DNA of 64,000 bases from Acidobacteriota bacterium (GTDB taxonomy: Bacteria > Acidobacteriota > Terriglobia > Terriglobales > Acidobacteriaceae): positions 1 through 64,000 of the forward strand of contig JARLGI010000124.1 in NCBI GenBank assembly GCA_031296115.1, written 5' to 3'. The notes beneath the pieces are model-generated. The model was given only the letters and a program-made list of their open reading frames with translations. It had not been told where the DNA came from and searched no databases. The position numbers were made by a program, and so were the translations under genes. Positions 1 through 64,000 of the stretch are shown piece after piece. Position 1 is the first letter of the stretch. Each line of letters begins with the position of its first letter.

Positions 1-361
1 ATGCAGCAGCGCAGAGGTACTCGCGTTAATTCTGCCGGTGCAGCGGACGGTAATCTCCTCGGGAGTTCTTACCGTTTCCAGATTCAATTCTGGGGCGGGG
101 TGCGCGACCATACAGAGCCTCCTTAGCCGGAATTTCCTTCTAGCCCTCGAAGAGCGACCATTCTACACCCAGCCTATCGTGGGCCCGAATTCCCATGGAG
201 ACCGGGTGCCAGCGGGATAGAGAGCCAGGGCGGTTGCAGAAACAGCTCGGTTCTGGGATTACGTGTGATATGGCGATTTATCAACAGTGAATCCAAAGCC
301 AGCAGGTGTCCCGTATGTGACTACCCACTCGTGCAGTTAGGCTGAGCCTCTGCGAGTCGGT
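1..361. other. Gap with no supported gene
   Basis: I see no convincing coding sequence, RNA gene or terminator here. Short open frames exist but lack a ribosome binding site or recognisable protein. The left window edge may cut a neighbouring gene, but no long frame runs off it. Confidence 0.4.
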
Positions 362-1339
362 CTACGGTACCGTCGTAGTCGGGGGCGAAAGCAACCGTTC
401 ACACTCTGTGACTTTCGGATCATTGTCCCCTAGTGATTTCCTGACATTGAGCACCACGTGGCATTGACGACCGGCTTCTTCGGGTTGATGTGCGCTGACC
501 GCGATCTTGGCGAGCATCCACGAATCCTCGGCGATTGCGCGGGAATAAACATCTTGTGCGCTGGGCATCGTTACCGCAGCCTTGTAGTTCTTTTGGTAAA
601 TCGAGACTGCCTTCTGCAATCTATCGCGGGCCAGCTCAGGCTTGTTTGACTCGAAGTACAAAACGCCGATGGCACTGAGAGAAGCGGCGGCTTCGGGAGA
701 ATCCTTGTGGTCTTTCTGCAGGCTGAGTGCATCTGTGTATTGTTGCTCGGCATCGCCAAAGCGTTTCTGCTTGCGATCCAATGCCCCCATTGACATCGCC
801 CATTGCCAATGCTCTGAAACGTGTTGAGGGGCAGGTGCGGCGGACGACAACAGGGTATGCGCATTCTGTAATGCCTGTTCCGTCTCTGAAAGGTTTGAAG
901 CATTCAGCGCGGTTTGTGCTCGGTCCATTGCCGCCCAGAATTTGTCTTGGAAAACAACTTCGGCTTTGTCTTCAACATCGTGGTTAGCGGGATTTCCAAA
1001 CCTCACAACAACCAGAGTGACTGCCGAAACTGGTTGTCCGTTCAACTCGAAGGGAGCGTACTTCCAGTTACGCACAACCGCGATAGCCGCTTGCACTAGC
1101 ATAGGATGCCCGCGCACTACCCGCAAAGTAGAGACGCTCCCACTCGGATCAATGGAAATTTGAAGGATCACGTTCCCCTGTATTCGGGCCGCCTGTGCAA
1201 GGGGAGGATATTCGGGAGCGGGGCTGCTCTTCAGGTGTGTCGCTGCTGCGTCCGAAGGAACGCGGACGTGTGTGGTTTGGGCAGCGACTGAAGAACCGAA
1301 TGCGACCACTAGGAAAACGAAGAACCAGTAGCGAGCCAT
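362..1339 (-). CDS. Secreted TonB C-terminal / TPR protein
   Basis: Protein of 325 aa. A signal peptide (MARYWFFVFL start, ending near VAAQ) is followed by a TonB C-terminal-type domain at about residues 35-115 (PEYPPLAQAARIQGNVIL, then NWKYAPFELNGQPV). The second half is alpha-helical with TPR-like repeats. TonB C-terminal domains contact outer-membrane receptors, but this protein has no long Pro-rich spacer and looks fully exported, so it is probably a periplasmic TonB-like protein rather than a classical energy transducer. The start was chosen at the ATG just before the hydrophobic leader; the frame stays open 49 codons upstream without a leader. No operon partner is adjacent. Confidence 0.8.
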   Translation of the reverse strand: MARYWFFVFLVVAFGSSVAAQTTHVRVPSDAAATHLKSSPAPEYPPLAQAARIQGNVILQISIDPSGSVSTLRVVRGHPMLVQAAIAVVRNWKYAPFELNGQPVSAVTLVVVRFGNPANHDVEDKAEVVFQDKFWAAMDRAQTALNASNLSETEQALQNAHTLLSSAAPAPQHVSEHWQWAMSMGALDRKQKRFGDAEQQYTDALSLQKDHKDSPEAAASLSAIGVLYFESNKPELARDRLQKAVSIYQKNYKAAVTMPSAQDVYSRAIAEDSWMLAKIAVSAHQPEEAGRQCHVVLNVRKSLGDNDPKVTECERLLSPPTTTVP

Positions 1340-6610: not shown

Positions 6611-8002
6611 ATGATGCCGGATGGCAAACCTCCGAGGGTGGTAATCGTTGGCGGCGGTTTCGGCGGTCTGCAAGCGGCTGAAAACCTCGCCCGTCTGCCC
6701 GTGCTGATCACACTGGTGGACCGCAAGAACCATCACACGTTTCAGCCACTGCTCTACCAGGTAGCTACCGGAGGTTTGTCCCCTGGTGAAATTGCCGCGC
6801 CCATCCGCGAGATTCTGGCCAAACATCAGAACGTGGAAGTTCTGCTGGGCGAGGTGACCGGCTTTGATCTCGAACGCCGCGTGGCAAAGCTCCAAGGATT
6901 CGAACTCCCCTATGATTACCTGATCGTTGCCGCTGGCGCGTCCCACGCCTACTTCGGGCATGATGAATGGGAGCCGCTGGCGCCCGGCCTGAAGACGGTC
7001 GAAGATGCGCTGGAGATTCGCCGGCGGGTGTTGCTGGTGTACGAACTGGCTGAGCGTGAGGCCGCGCTGACCGGACACCGTCCGCTGTTGAACTTTGTCA
7101 TCGTCGGTGGTGGTCCTACCGGCGTCGAACTGGCGGGAACCCTGGCCGAGGTCGCGCGCAAGTCACTGGCTCACAACTTCCGCAACATTGATCCGGCGAG
7201 AACCCGTATTTTGCTCGTGGAAGCCGGCCCAGGCGTGCTGGCCGCATATCCGCCGGACTTGCAGCGCAGCGCCGCGAAGCAGTTGCAGCATCTGGGCGTC
7301 GAGGTCCACACGAACTCGGCAGTAACCGATGTGCGCCTCGGCGAGGTCCGCGTGGGCGAGGAGATCATGCCTGCGGCAATCGTGTTGTGGGCGGCGGGAG
7401 TTTCGGCATCGCCTCTCGGCCGAGCTCTGGGAGTGCCAGTGAACAGCGCTGGACGTGTCCTCGTCGAGCCGGACCTCAGTATTCCCGGACATCGCGACGT
7501 ATTCGTCATCGGCGACCTAGCCAGCATGAGAGACGCTGCGGGAAAGCAACTGCCGGGCATAGCTCCGGTGGCCATGCAGCAAGGCCGGGCCGTGGCCAGG
7601 CAAATCGCGGATGATCTTGCCGGCAAGCCCCGCGGGAAATTTCATTACGCAGACAAGGGCTCGCTGGCCACAATCGGACGAGCGGCCGCCGTCGCACAGT
7701 TCGGCAAGGTGCATATTTCTGGCTTCCTAGCGTGGCTGTCGTGGCTGTTCATCCACATTTTCTTCCTGATTGGGTTCCGTAACCGTGTCGTCGTCATGTT
7801 CCAGTGGGCCTGGAGCTATCTCACCTATGAGCGCTGGGCGCGGCTGATTACCGGCGAGTCGCCGACTTCCAAGGTGACTTCGATGCAGTACGTCGAAGAG
7901 TCGGAAGCGAATGCCGAGGGTGAGAGCTCGCGGCTGGCAAAGGAATCTTCCGATAGATCCGCCGCTAAAGCTGGTGCTCCTGCGATTCGCAAAATTAGTT
8001 GA
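6611..8002 (+). CDS. ndh: Type II NADH dehydrogenase (NDH-2)
   Basis: Flavoprotein of 463 aa that passes electrons from NADH to the quinone pool at the inner membrane without pumping protons. The N-terminal FAD-binding Rossmann motif is VVIVGGGFGGLQAAENL, followed by NHHTFQPLLYQVATGGLSP, typical of NDH-2. The NADH-binding motif is VIVGGGPTGVELAGTLAE (about residue 160). The second FAD block is VFVIGDLASM. The C-terminal amphipathic/hydrophobic region (WLSWLFIHIFFLIGFRNR) is the membrane anchor. Two ATGs are tandem at 6611 and 6614; either may be used. The C-terminal tail is Ser/Ala-rich. Confidence 0.93.
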   Translation: MMPDGKPPRVVIVGGGFGGLQAAENLARLPVLITLVDRKNHHTFQPLLYQVATGGLSPGEIAAPIREILAKHQNVEVLLGEVTGFDLERRVAKLQGFELPYDYLIVAAGASHAYFGHDEWEPLAPGLKTVEDALEIRRRVLLVYELAEREAALTGHRPLLNFVIVGGGPTGVELAGTLAEVARKSLAHNFRNIDPARTRILLVEAGPGVLAAYPPDLQRSAAKQLQHLGVEVHTNSAVTDVRLGEVRVGEEIMPAAIVLWAAGVSASPLGRALGVPVNSAGRVLVEPDLSIPGHRDVFVIGDLASMRDAAGKQLPGIAPVAMQQGRAVARQIADDLAGKPRGKFHYADKGSLATIGRAAAVAQFGKVHISGFLAWLSWLFIHIFFLIGFRNRVVVMFQWAWSYLTYERWARLITGESPTSKVTSMQYVEESEANAEGESSRLAKESSDRSAAKAGAPAIRKIS

Positions 8003-59942: not shown

Positions 59943-61712
59943 ATGTGCAGCCACAACCTAGTTTCTTCAGACCAAGCCGGGAGTCGGAATGCGCAGCAGA
60001 AAAGCCCCGAAGAGACCGCAGGGACCGCGTCGTCCGGGGCGTCCCGCGATGCGGAAACGCAGTTCGATTACGACTACATCATTATTGGCTCGGGATTCGG
60101 CGGCAGCGTCAGCGCGTTGCGGCTGGTGGAAAAAGGTTATCGCGTCGCGGTGATGGAGATGGGGCGGCGCTGGACGCCGGAAAACCTGCCGCGCACCAGT
60201 TGGTCGTTCCATCGCTGGTTCTGGCGGCCGGGACTGGCGCTGCGCGGCTTCTTCAACATGCGCTTCTTCCGCCATGTCACCATCCTGCACGGCTGCGCCG
60301 TGGGCGGCGGTTCCATCACGTACGCCTGCACGCTGCTGCGGCCGCCCGACAAAGTGTGGGACAACGGCGACTGGGCGGGGCTGTCGGACTGGAAGACCGA
60401 GATGCCCGCACACTACGACACGGCGTCGCGCATGTTGGGCGTCACGGAAAACAGGATTCTCGGGCCGGCCGACAAGCTGCTTAAGAAGGCGGCGGAATCG
60501 ATTGGCGTGGGCAATACCTTCTATCCCACGCAGGTTGCCATCTTCCAGGCGGCGCCGGGCGAGCCCGGCGGACAGACTTTTCCCGATCCTTATTTCGGCG
60601 GCGAAGGCCCGGAGCGCACCACCTGCACCGCTTGCGGCGGCTGCATGATGGGCTGCCGTCACGGCGCGAAGAACACGCTCGACATGAACTATCTCTATCT
60701 TGCGGAGAAGCGCGGCGCGCAGGTCTATGCCGAGACGAAGGTCGTGGATGTGCAGCCGCTGAGCGGCGCGGCCGACGGCAGCCGTGGGTACGAGGTGTCC
60801 ACCCAGAAGTCCACCGCGTTCGTAATGAAGCATCCGCGGCGCTTCACCTGCAGGGGCGTCATCTTCGCAGCGTCATCGCTGGGCACTACCGAGTTGCTCT
60901 TTCATCTGAAGGAGAAGAAGTCGCTGCCCGCGGTCAGCGATCGCGTGGGCAAGCACATCCGCACGAATTCGGAATCGCTGATCGGCGTGCGCGTGCCCGG
61001 ATCGAGCGACGACCTGTCGAAGGGCATCGCCATCGGCTCCGGGGTTTACATTGATGAGCACACGCACATCGAGGCAGTACGCTATCCCAACGGCTCGGAT
61101 TCGATGTCGGCGTGGTCCACCATCCTGACCGGCGGACGGCCGGGCGCGGGCCGGATCGGGCTGTGGCTCAAGAACCTCTGGGTCTCGGCCATCTGCCATC
61201 CCATCCGCACCTTCCGAGTGTTCCAGCCTTTCGGCTGGGCGCGGGAGTCGGTGATCTTGCTGTGCATGCAGGCGCTGGACGCGCACATTGACATGCGCTG
61301 GAAGCGGACGTGGTTCTGGCCGTTCCGCAAATTCATGGTCAGCCATGGGGACAAGGTACCCACCTACATCCCGCAGGCCAACGACTTCGCGCAGAAGCTG
61401 GCACAGATGGCGGGCGGCACCGCCATGAGCATGCTGCCGGAGATCCTGTTCGACATTCCAGGCACGGCGCATTGCCTAGGCGGCTGCGTCATCGCCGACT
61501 CGCCGGAGCGCGGCGTGGTCGACGCCCGGCATCGCGTCTTCGGCTACCAGAACATGTACATCTGCGATGGCTCGGTGGTGGCGGCCAACCTGGGGGTCAA
61601 TCCCAGCCTGACCATTACCGCGCTGGCGGAGCGAGCCATGAGTTTTATCCAACCGGCATCGCAAAGCGAGTGGAAGCACAGAGCCGAGCGACAGAAGGCG
61701 CAGGTCGCGTAG
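59943..61712 (+). CDS. GMC-family flavin oxidoreductase (cholesterol oxidase-like)
   Basis: Protein of 589 aa. The FAD motif is IIIGSGFGGSVSALRLVEKGYRVAVME (about residue 45). A Cys-rich block CTACGGCMMGCRHGAKNTL resembles the ferredoxin-like signature of this oxidoreductase subset. C-terminal GMC-type flavin contact: GTAHCLGGCVIADSPE, YICDGSVVAANLGVNPSLTITALAERAM. Substrate is unknown; sterol or hopanoid/alcohol oxidation is a family guess. Start may be later than 59943; the first 40 residues are low-complexity. Confidence 0.88.
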   Translation: MCSHNLVSSDQAGSRNAQQKSPEETAGTASSGASRDAETQFDYDYIIIGSGFGGSVSALRLVEKGYRVAVMEMGRRWTPENLPRTSWSFHRWFWRPGLALRGFFNMRFFRHVTILHGCAVGGGSITYACTLLRPPDKVWDNGDWAGLSDWKTEMPAHYDTASRMLGVTENRILGPADKLLKKAAESIGVGNTFYPTQVAIFQAAPGEPGGQTFPDPYFGGEGPERTTCTACGGCMMGCRHGAKNTLDMNYLYLAEKRGAQVYAETKVVDVQPLSGAADGSRGYEVSTQKSTAFVMKHPRRFTCRGVIFAASSLGTTELLFHLKEKKSLPAVSDRVGKHIRTNSESLIGVRVPGSSDDLSKGIAIGSGVYIDEHTHIEAVRYPNGSDSMSAWSTILTGGRPGAGRIGLWLKNLWVSAICHPIRTFRVFQPFGWARESVILLCMQALDAHIDMRWKRTWFWPFRKFMVSHGDKVPTYIPQANDFAQKLAQMAGGTAMSMLPEILFDIPGTAHCLGGCVIADSPERGVVDARHRVFGYQNMYICDGSVVAANLGVNPSLTITALAERAMSFIQPASQSEWKHRAERQKAQVA

Positions 61713-62020
61713 GACGCGGCACAAGAACAGGTAACCTGCGGCCACGTGACCTCTCAACGACACGTCCGAACTCACGGACGTGATTCCAGCAAGAAACGAC
61801 ATTTAAGACTTGATTACATTGGCGATTTCTAAGGTAATTCTTGGCCAAAGCTGGGTTACAATTCGCACAAACGATGCTTCAAGTCGCCTCCGGCGCGGCG
61901 GAAAGAACCGAACATTCCGATGCTGAAGCAAGAACGCGGTTGCGGCACCAAACTATTTCGGCATTTCTGACGACGGGCTGCGCCCGGACGGACGCGGTCA
62001 ACGCAGTACCAGGAGTGGGA
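61713..62020. other. Gap with no supported gene
   Basis: 308 bases between the GMC gene and the cytochrome. The frame before 62021 is open but lacks coding character and the AGGAG at 62011 serves the cytochrome. No -10/-35 pair is convincing. Confidence 0.45.
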
Positions 62021-62959
62021 ATGAATCTCGCCAAAAGAGCTTTCCCGTTGGTTCCAGCTTTCTTGATCGCCTGCGGCATTCTTTCGGCCGGCGCTGCAAG
62101 ACCGCAGGCCGGCAGCCCGCCAACGCAGTCTTCCGCCGTGACGCCCCTCCCGACGGGCGGCCAATACGCCGACAACAACATTTGCCAGACGTGCCACCAG
62201 GAAGTGTGGGACAGGCACTTCGCCAACACGCCGCACTCTGCGCTGCTCAAGGGCGAGCAACACGGATGCCAGTCGTGTCATGGACCGGGACAGGCGCACG
62301 TGGACGGGGGCGGCGACGTCACTAAGATCACTCGCTTCGAAACGCTCACCCCGGCGCAGACGGCGGCCATCTGCACCAAGTGCCACCAGTCGAGCCTGGA
62401 GACGCAGAACTTCGCAAAGTCGGCACACCTGGCCAGTGGCGTCAGTTGCACGTCGTGCCACAGCCCGCACAAGTCCAGCGATGTGAATTTCATGCTCATA
62501 AAGCCGCAGACGGAGCTGTGCTACGGATGCCACGCCGCGCAGAAAGCCGAGTTCGCCCGGCCCTACCGTCACCGCGTCGATGCCGGGCTCATCCAGTGCA
62601 GCGACTGCCATAATCCGCACGGGACCCAGGTGGGCCACCAGGTGAGGGCTGCCGCCGGGCAATTCGCTGTGTGCACCAAGTGCCACACCGATACCATGGG
62701 GCCGTTCGTCTTCGAACACGCACCGGTCAAGACGGAAAGCAGTTGCCTGAACTGCCACACGCCGCACGGCTCGACCAACCCGCGGCTGCTGCAGGTGAAC
62801 AACGTCAACTTCCTGTGCCTGCGTTGTCATACGCCCAACACGAATGGAGCGGCTCCGGGTGCGCCTTCGTTCCATAACCAGAACACGAAGTACCAGGCGT
62901 GCACCCTCTGCCACACACAGATTCATGGTTCCAACTTCAGCCCGGTGTTCTTCCGGTAG
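62021..62959 (+). CDS. Decaheme c-type cytochrome (MtrA/DmsE-like)
   Basis: Protein of 312 aa; ATG at 62021 behind AGGAG. Signal peptide (FPLVPAFLIACGILSAGAA) followed by ten CxxCH heme sites: CQTCH, CQSCH, CTKCH, CTSCH, CYGCH, CSDCH, CTKCH, CLNCH, CLRCH, CTLCH. Spacing and length match the periplasmic decaheme cytochromes MtrA/DmsE/PioA that pass electrons through an outer-membrane porin. Ten nt downstream starts a beta-barrel gene, so the pair looks like a porin-cytochrome module. Confidence 0.93.
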   Translation: MNLAKRAFPLVPAFLIACGILSAGAARPQAGSPPTQSSAVTPLPTGGQYADNNICQTCHQEVWDRHFANTPHSALLKGEQHGCQSCHGPGQAHVDGGGDVTKITRFETLTPAQTAAICTKCHQSSLETQNFAKSAHLASGVSCTSCHSPHKSSDVNFMLIKPQTELCYGCHAAQKAEFARPYRHRVDAGLIQCSDCHNPHGTQVGHQVRAAAGQFAVCTKCHTDTMGPFVFEHAPVKTESSCLNCHTPHGSTNPRLLQVNNVNFLCLRCHTPNTNGAAPGAPSFHNQNTKYQACTLCHTQIHGSNFSPVFFR

Positions 62960-62968
62960 GTGCGAGGC

Positions 62969-64000
62969 ATGTCAATGGATTGTCCAAAGATTGGCGTTTA
63001 CTCTCTCCGGCTGGCGATGCTGGTGCTATGCGTATTGCTGGCCATCGCGGCCTCGGCGCAGAACCCTCCGGCTCCGGCCAGTCCACCGCCCGCTCCGTCG
63101 CCAAGCGCGGATGAAGGCAAGGACATCGGCGGCTTTCATGTGACGCAGTCAATTGAGTTGGGCGGCCGCATCACCGAGGTCAACGGCAGCCAGGCGATGT
63201 ACGACACGCTGATTAATCAGCAGACGGGCGCGCGCATCCTAGAGCAGTCGCTCACCATGCAGTCGCTCAGCCACGAGGATTATTTCGACACGCTGACGCT
63301 CAGTAGCTTCGGATGGGGCGGCGATCCCGAGCAGGCGGCGCGCCTGCGGATCTCGAAGTATCGCTGGTACACCTTCAGTGGCAGCTACCAGCACATGCAG
63401 AATTATTTCGATTACGACCTGTTTGCTAACCCGCTGAATCCGCCGACCGGCCAGCCGTTCATCCCGATCCTGAATTCACCGCACGCCTATTACAACCGGC
63501 AGAACCTCTACAACTTCGGCATCGTGGTACTTCCCATGAGCCGCATCTCGTTCCGCTTCGATTACAGCCGGAACCGCTTCATCGGGCCATCGTTCAGCAG
63601 CGTGCACCAAGGGACCGAGGCACTGCTCGACCAGGGAACCAACAACACGCTGAACGGATATCGCTTTGGCGCCGATTTCCGCGCCACCAAGAAGACCACC
63701 ATCAGCTACACGCAGTTGTTCCAGTACTACGATGGCAACACGACGTACCAGCTGAACCCGTTTAACTCCTGGCCGCTTTCCAACGGCCAGCCAGTAACGT
63801 TGGGGCTCTCCTGGTTCAACGGCGGCAGCCCGTGCGCCGCGCCGCTGAAGAACGGCATCGCCAATCCCACGTGCAACGGGTACTTCAACTATAACGTCTA
63901 TCAGAACCAACGCACGGTGATTCCGACGGAACAGGTGAACCTGAAGTCGTCGTCCCTGAAGTGGCTGGACTTCAACGGCCAGTTCCAGTACAGCCATGCG
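62969..64000 (+). CDS. MtrB/PioB-like outer-membrane beta-barrel protein, cut by the window edge
   Basis: Open to the last base, 344 codons visible. ATG at 62969, with GAGG 5 nt upstream and 9 nt after the cytochrome stop. Signal peptide (GVYSLRLAMLVLCVLLAIAASAQ), a Pro-rich linker, then GGFHVTQSIELGGRITEVNGSQAMYDTLINQQTGAR. The rest alternates aromatic/polar strands (YRWYTFSGSYQHMQNYFDYDL, SRISFRFDYSRNRFIGPSF, YRFGADFRATKKTTISYTQLFQYY) like an outer-membrane barrel. It lacks the CxxC sometimes found near the MtrB N-terminus. Sequence beyond 64000 is needed for the full barrel. Confidence 0.82.
   Translation, partial: MSMDCPKIGVYSLRLAMLVLCVLLAIAASAQNPPAPASPPPAPSPSADEGKDIGGFHVTQSIELGGRITEVNGSQAMYDTLINQQTGARILEQSLTMQSLSHEDYFDTLTLSSFGWGGDPEQAARLRISKYRWYTFSGSYQHMQNYFDYDLFANPLNPPTGQPFIPILNSPHAYYNRQNLYNFGIVVLPMSRISFRFDYSRNRFIGPSFSSVHQGTEALLDQGTNNTLNGYRFGADFRATKKTTISYTQLFQYYDGNTTYQLNPFNSWPLSNGQPVTLGLSWFNGGSPCAAPLKNGIANPTCNGYFNYNVYQNQRTVIPTEQVNLKSSSLKWLDFNGQFQYSHA

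Follow-up and report, generated by a model that had tools for sequence, protein, structure and literature searches.

A decaheme cytochrome and a divergent MtrB-like barrel as a predicted outer-membrane electron conduit in a peat-soil Acidobacterium

The closest described counterparts of the locus reported here are conduits in which a decaheme cytochrome is paired with a barrel protein. In Shewanella, this is the MtrAB(C) system, for which the structure 6R2Q is named as the MtrAB complex (PMC10654088) and in which the OmcA/MtrC cytochromes are assigned to electron output (PMC3669403). PioAB of Rhodopseudomonas and MtoAB of Sideroxydans are described as consisting of a decaheme and a barrel, without a surface decaheme (PMC10654088). 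For Geobacter sulfurreducens, a single transcriptome showed higher expression of both GSU2203 and GSU2204 on hematite and magnetite (PMC4070692). Within the Acidobacteria, MtrA/DmsE-like decahemes from arctic peat have been tied to possible iron or humic reduction (PMC3669403), and a porin–cytochrome complex of Holophaga was presented as the first in the phylum to its authors' knowledge, the Holophaga complexes being MtrB-like and ExtB/E-like in a 2020 survey that used HMMs for MtrB, OmbB, ExtB/E, and ExtI (PMC7399161). Acidobacteriota MAGs were also among 36 MAGs reported with porin–cytochrome complexes (PMC13264449). Taken together, PMC3669403, PMC7399161, PMC10654088, and PMC13264449 mean that this kind of conduit is already known in the phylum. 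The barrel branch described below was not found as a family of its own in the literature searched, nor was it named in the Pfam and NCBIfam scans.

We analyzed a window of 64,000 nt, which is the start of a 115,143-nt contig (C80) in the genome of an Acidobacterium from peat soil (3.75 Mb, 125 contigs, MAG completeness 93.6%). Its gene pair resembles MtrAB(C) in that a DmsE/MtrA decaheme stands directly before a barrel with remote homology to the MtrB type, whereas it differs from that system in that the barrel lies outside the Pfam family PF11854 (MtrB_PioB) and the host genome encodes nothing over the OmcA/MtrC cut-off. The two-part arrangement is shared with PioAB and MtoAB, but PF11854, to which the host barrel does not belong, is the Pfam family named for PioB. 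A likeness to GSU2203/GSU2204 was also detected: the only NCBIfam match of the barrel was to the GSU2204 model (NF041027), this weak match was common to 14 of the 17 related barrels in our profile (best E-value, 1.2e-8), and the cytochrome scored 205.2 bits against the GSU2203 family model (NF041028). However, neither protein came close to its curated cut-off (28 bits against 350 for the barrel and 205 against 325 for the cytochrome), and the GSU2204 model is named as CXXCH-containing, whereas none of the 17 barrels contains a CxxCH motif.

The cytochrome gene and its barrel partner

The cytochrome gene occupies positions 62021..62959 of the forward strand, from an ATG at 62021 to a TAG stop codon at 62957–62959, and is preceded by a likely ribosome-binding site, AGGAG, read from the sequence at 62011..62015 (+). 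The encoded protein of 312 amino acids contains ten CxxCH motifs and 23 histidines, and its N-terminus is Sec-like as judged by eye. When its residues were shuffled 2000 times, the mean number of CxxCH motifs was 0.1 and the maximum was 2. No other frame on either strand of the window contains two or more such motifs. The protein scored 242.4 bits against the DmsE-family decaheme model TIGR03508 (cut-off, 192.2 bits), covering positions 3–256 of the 258 in the profile, and was the only one of the 10 matches to this model in the host genome to exceed the cut-off. Its best solved relative was 6r2q_A, matched over residues 46–306 with an E-value of 1.5e-33; this chain is MtrA, and the molecule name printed with the match is that of another protein. 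The preliminary description of this DNA, which had named a decaheme of MtrA/DmsE length with ten CxxCH sites, was confirmed.

The barrel gene follows on the same strand, at 62969..64000 in the window and to 65320 on the contig. Its ATG at 62969 lies 9 nt past the cytochrome stop codon, the spacing given earlier, and an in-frame GTG at 62960 is also a possible start. The ORF is cut by the end of the window; extension into the contig gave a complete reading frame, with 783 codons if translation begins at the ATG and 786 if it begins at the GTG. The N-terminus is of a Sec-like export type by eye, and the C-terminus is YAF, an ending of a kind that is common in outer-membrane barrels. The four named relatives of this barrel belong to Acidobacteriaceae MAGs labeled palsa or bog.

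A Pfam scan of the barrel returned no match, including to PF11854, which also had 0 matches in the whole host genome. We built one profile from the barrels of 17 of 35 related loci, including the window's own sequence (A1), and another from 15 of 20 acidobacterial loci with PF11854-type barrels (A2). PF11854 was absent from all 17 A1 members and from 10 further barrels (eight distant ones and two others); the general barrel model PF13505 was weakly matched by 3 of the 17 (best E-value, 8.3e-6) and PF10082 by 1 of the 17. The preliminary description had asked for a profile search against MtrB/PioB, and the relationship was seen at the level of profiles but not at that of the Pfam model: when A1 and A2 were compared with hhalign, they matched at 98.8% over 609–614 columns in both directions, compared with 0.3–0.6% for LptD, 8.8–12.0% for TonB-type barrels, and 4.7–6.7% for a reversed profile. 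E-values from single-pair hhalign comparisons are not calibrated against a database, and the homology claim rests on these controls. A further profile, made from eight remoter barrels of the A1 type, matched A1 at 100% and A2 at 99.6%, and A2 itself matched 6r2q_B (chain B of 6R2Q) at 4.4e-94. The barrel profile found no PDB sequence at an E-value of 10. One place in another genome (G074, contig C6) matched both barrel models, weakly in each case (2.3e-6 and 4.1e-5). The strong A1–A2 match, the low controls, and the silence of PF11854 together indicate, at the sequence level, a remote but specific relationship of this barrel to MtrB, one that the Pfam model does not reach.

Structural approaches were less informative for this protein. 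An AlphaFold prediction from an alignment of only 5 sequences (A3, consisting of four relatives and the part in the window, with the 784-aa barrel of locus L041, 74% identical to that of the window, as its first sequence) had a mean pLDDT of 24.4 and a pTM of 0.16. A count of amphipathic peaks gave 27–43 depending on the threshold, higher in A1 and A2 than in shuffles, but values for LptD and TonB-type barrels were similar, and the count fixes no number of strands for comparison with the 26 expected of an MtrB/PioB barrel.

Conservation of the pair and its surface end

The barrel was sought in 61 genomes (the host's own and 60 relatives), of which 32 carry it, and 35 barrel loci from these 32 genomes were examined, a number that excludes one further weak match (G051, contig C36). 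In 32 of the 35 loci, the gene directly upstream of the barrel encodes a cytochrome with 9–10 CxxCH motifs; the other three are cut by contig ends, two of them retaining a cut pair (L043 and L073) and one having no cytochrome (L072). At L073, which belongs to a relative of the same genus, the cytochrome frame (255–1064, reverse strand) has only eight CxxCH motifs and its adjoining barrel is cut by the contig end. In the PF11854-type loci, an ORF with ten CxxCH motifs adjoins the barrel in 19 of 20 cases and one with seven in the twentieth.

In a tree of the cytochromes, 30 sequences from A1-type pairs were separated from 17 of the PF11854 type by one dividing branch with a support of 100/100. 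The tree omits two near copies (L041 and L042), two cut sequences (L043 and L073), the locus that has no cytochrome (L072), and three members of the PF11854 set (L097, L104, and L106). G178 and G204, two genomes from the same family as that of the window, carry PF11854-type pairs whose cytochromes fall on the other side of the tree, so the split does not simply follow taxonomy. In this set of sequences, the cytochrome and the barrel type are inherited together.

Other arrangements were also observed. G188 (contig C107, 17637–24069) has a tandem of two decaheme–barrel pairs in which one barrel is of the PF11854 type and the other of the A1 type. In two distant genomes, the A1-type barrel precedes the decaheme (G120, C6, 152541–155477; G161, C449, 3142–5915).

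With regard to the surface end, OmcA/MtrC-family decahemes adjoin the pair in two relatives (L062 and L067), scoring 513 and 457 bits against a cut-off of 209.3; therefore, complete mtrCAB-like sets with an A1-type barrel do exist. In the whole host genome, the best score against the OmcA/MtrC model (TIGR03507) was 18.3 bits, against the same cut-off. It had been suggested that an MtrC-like cytochrome might lie beyond position 64,000, but the search for downstream extracellular multiheme cytochromes did not bear this out: no further stop-to-stop frame with two or more CxxCH motifs occurs on the contig to position 115000. The MtrC-domain model PF22113 was passed by two cytochromes on another host contig, C3 (33.9 bits, and 31.4 bits with neighbors), and also by the window's own decaheme (34 bits), so this model is no marker of surface cytochromes.

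Proposed electron source and direction of flow

A candidate electron source is encoded on host contig C3, where a CRP/FNR-type regulator, a 19-heme cytochrome, a b561-type protein, an 11-heme–b561 protein, and a six-heme NapC-type protein lie on one strand (L080, 6674–15451). This cluster is unlinked to the pair in the host, and genes related to it lie on both sides of the pair or near it in G023 (L051), to whose proteins the b561 label refers by likeness. Identities to that locus were 85% for the regulator, 77% for the 19-heme cytochrome, 73% for the b561-type protein, 62% for the NapC-type protein, and 61% for the 11-heme–b561 protein; in G029 (L055), they were 84%, 60%, and 61% for the regulator, the 11-heme protein, and the NapC-type protein, respectively. 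NapC-type relatives occur near the pair in 7 of the 35 loci, a count for which the flanks differed in length; an eighth (L044) has a smaller protein of the NapC type. In the Mtr system, CymA supplies quinol electrons to MtrAB. By analogy, these observations suggest that quinol may be the electron source for the pair through a C3-type module, which in the host is encoded on a different contig from the pair.

We consider the pair to be an MtrAB/PioAB-like trans-outer-membrane conduit with a divergent barrel, a predicted function to which we assign a probability of roughly 0.8. This assignment draws on the tandem genes, the export-type starts, the DmsE decaheme, the remote homology to MtrB, the conserved pairing, and the split in the cytochrome tree. 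The porin–cytochrome pair proposed in the preliminary description is upheld by the DmsE cut-off, the match to 6R2Q chain A, the relationship to MtrB, the conserved pairing, and the OmcA/MtrC neighbors in two relatives. In the proposed mechanism, the barrel would sheathe the decaheme in the outer membrane as one complex, and the heme chain would carry electrons between the periplasm and the cell surface. The electrons would be drawn from quinol through the separate NapC-type, b561-type, and 19-heme cluster, and the acceptors may be Fe(III) or humic substances, used when oxygen is short under the control of the CRP/FNR-type regulator. As the host has no protein that scores over the OmcA/MtrC cut-off, electrons would pass from the conduit straight to soluble or chelated acceptors, or a surface protein that escapes recognition here would take part. 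We somewhat favor a mainly outward flow of electrons.

The same conduit might instead run inward, as in PioAB and MtoAB, conduits that have no surface decaheme. In that case, Fe(II) or some other external donor would supply the electrons, which would enter an aerobe's respiratory chain. The two-gene layout and the lack of any OmcA/MtrC protein over the cut-off in the host genome agree with this, as does a count of PioA/MtoA homologues in Acidobacteriia given in PMC10654088. However, the A1 barrel is paired in two relatives with cytochromes of the OmcA/MtrC family, and the NapC/b561-type module with its CRP/FNR-type regulator fits quinol oxidation at low oxygen; neither point is decisive, and we regard inward flow as a tentative alternative with a minority share of the probability. 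Shewanella OmcA/MtrC cytochromes serve electron output. That the cytochrome and the barrel are unrelated neighbors, a periplasmic redox protein beside a nutrient porin, might be argued from the missing MtrB-family Pfam match and the pLDDT of 24.4, but such an accident is hard to reconcile with a pair that is kept in 32 of 35 loci and is cut by contig ends in the remaining 3, with a profile match specific to MtrB-type barrels, or with a cytochrome tree that divides by barrel type, and we judge it highly improbable.

Two other roles concern the partners of the pair. Extracellular DMSO respiration of the DmsEF type, in which the pair would feed a surface molybdenum reductase, is brought to mind by the name of the model that the cytochrome passed, but both molybdopterin genes in the host genome are on contigs other than that of the pair, one being NuoG (485 bits, over the cut-off) and the other a 1054-aa frame with one TGA on contig C17. 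We rejected this role, as the pair's contig has no reductase gene, and consider it very unlikely. A GMC oxidoreductase of the cholesterol-oxidase type (59943–61712, forward strand; NF058674, 916 bits vs a cut-off of 850) lies directly upstream, 308 nt before the cytochrome gene and on the same strand, so the pair could be imagined to export the electrons of sterol oxidation. In the relative L040, however, an M13 peptidase gene stands two genes before the cytochrome; for the other relatives, the comparison of upstream genes used ORF sizes alone. With no support from L040, this link was set aside, and we hold it to be highly improbable. The 308-nt leader between the oxidase gene and the cytochrome gene (61713..62020, +) was aligned with its counterparts, and conservation across 3 relatives was too low to name a regulatory site.

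Distribution in Acidobacteriota and genomic context

In one sample of 149 Acidobacteriota genomes, scored for presence per genome rather than for adjacency, PF11854 was matched in 45, A1 in 32, and both in 11. A DmsE decaheme over the cut-off was detected in 66 of the 149; among these 66, a PF11854 barrel was present in 42, only the A1 type in 16 more, and neither in 8. Five of the 32 A1 genomes had no DmsE decaheme over the cut-off (G089, G091, G117, G155, and G168). In four of them, a lower-scoring decaheme adjoins the barrel by coordinates; in G089, where the barrel match (5.9e-4) may be due to chance, there is none.

Many peats and soils in which methane formation competes with the reduction of iron and humics are rich in Acidobacteriota. 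We give about an even chance to the broader proposition that soil Acidobacteriota carry a conduit lineage, with its own barrel family and decaheme clade, that is invisible to model-based surveys. If so, many supposed plain aerobes would respire, or feed on, outside electrons through a dedicated quinol module. As this branch is missed by the Pfam barrel model, the capacity of the phylum for outside electron exchange has probably been undercounted. The gene pair and the module provide a defined target for testing.

A plasmid origin found no support, as tblastn of the barrel sequence returned nothing from plasmids. An NDH-2 had been noted in the window; an NDH-2-like start sequence is present at 6611–7999, as read by eye only, and the genome also encodes NuoG, so an NDH-2 would not be its sole NADH dehydrogenase. 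Downstream of the pair, a gene fusing a STAS domain to a response-regulator receiver (L001, 5318–6046, equivalent to contig positions 65317–66045, reverse strand) converges on the barrel gene and overlaps its stop codon. It is followed, by eye, by a frame-broken radical-SAM maturase-like gene and then transposase-like remnants (L001, 6171–7808). Elsewhere in the genome, on contig C112, an NrfH (158 bits, over the cut-off) occurs with an NrfA-like five-CxxCH protein that scores below its cut-offs (L081, 5434–7441), which suggests that this presumed aerobe may also carry out nitrite ammonification.
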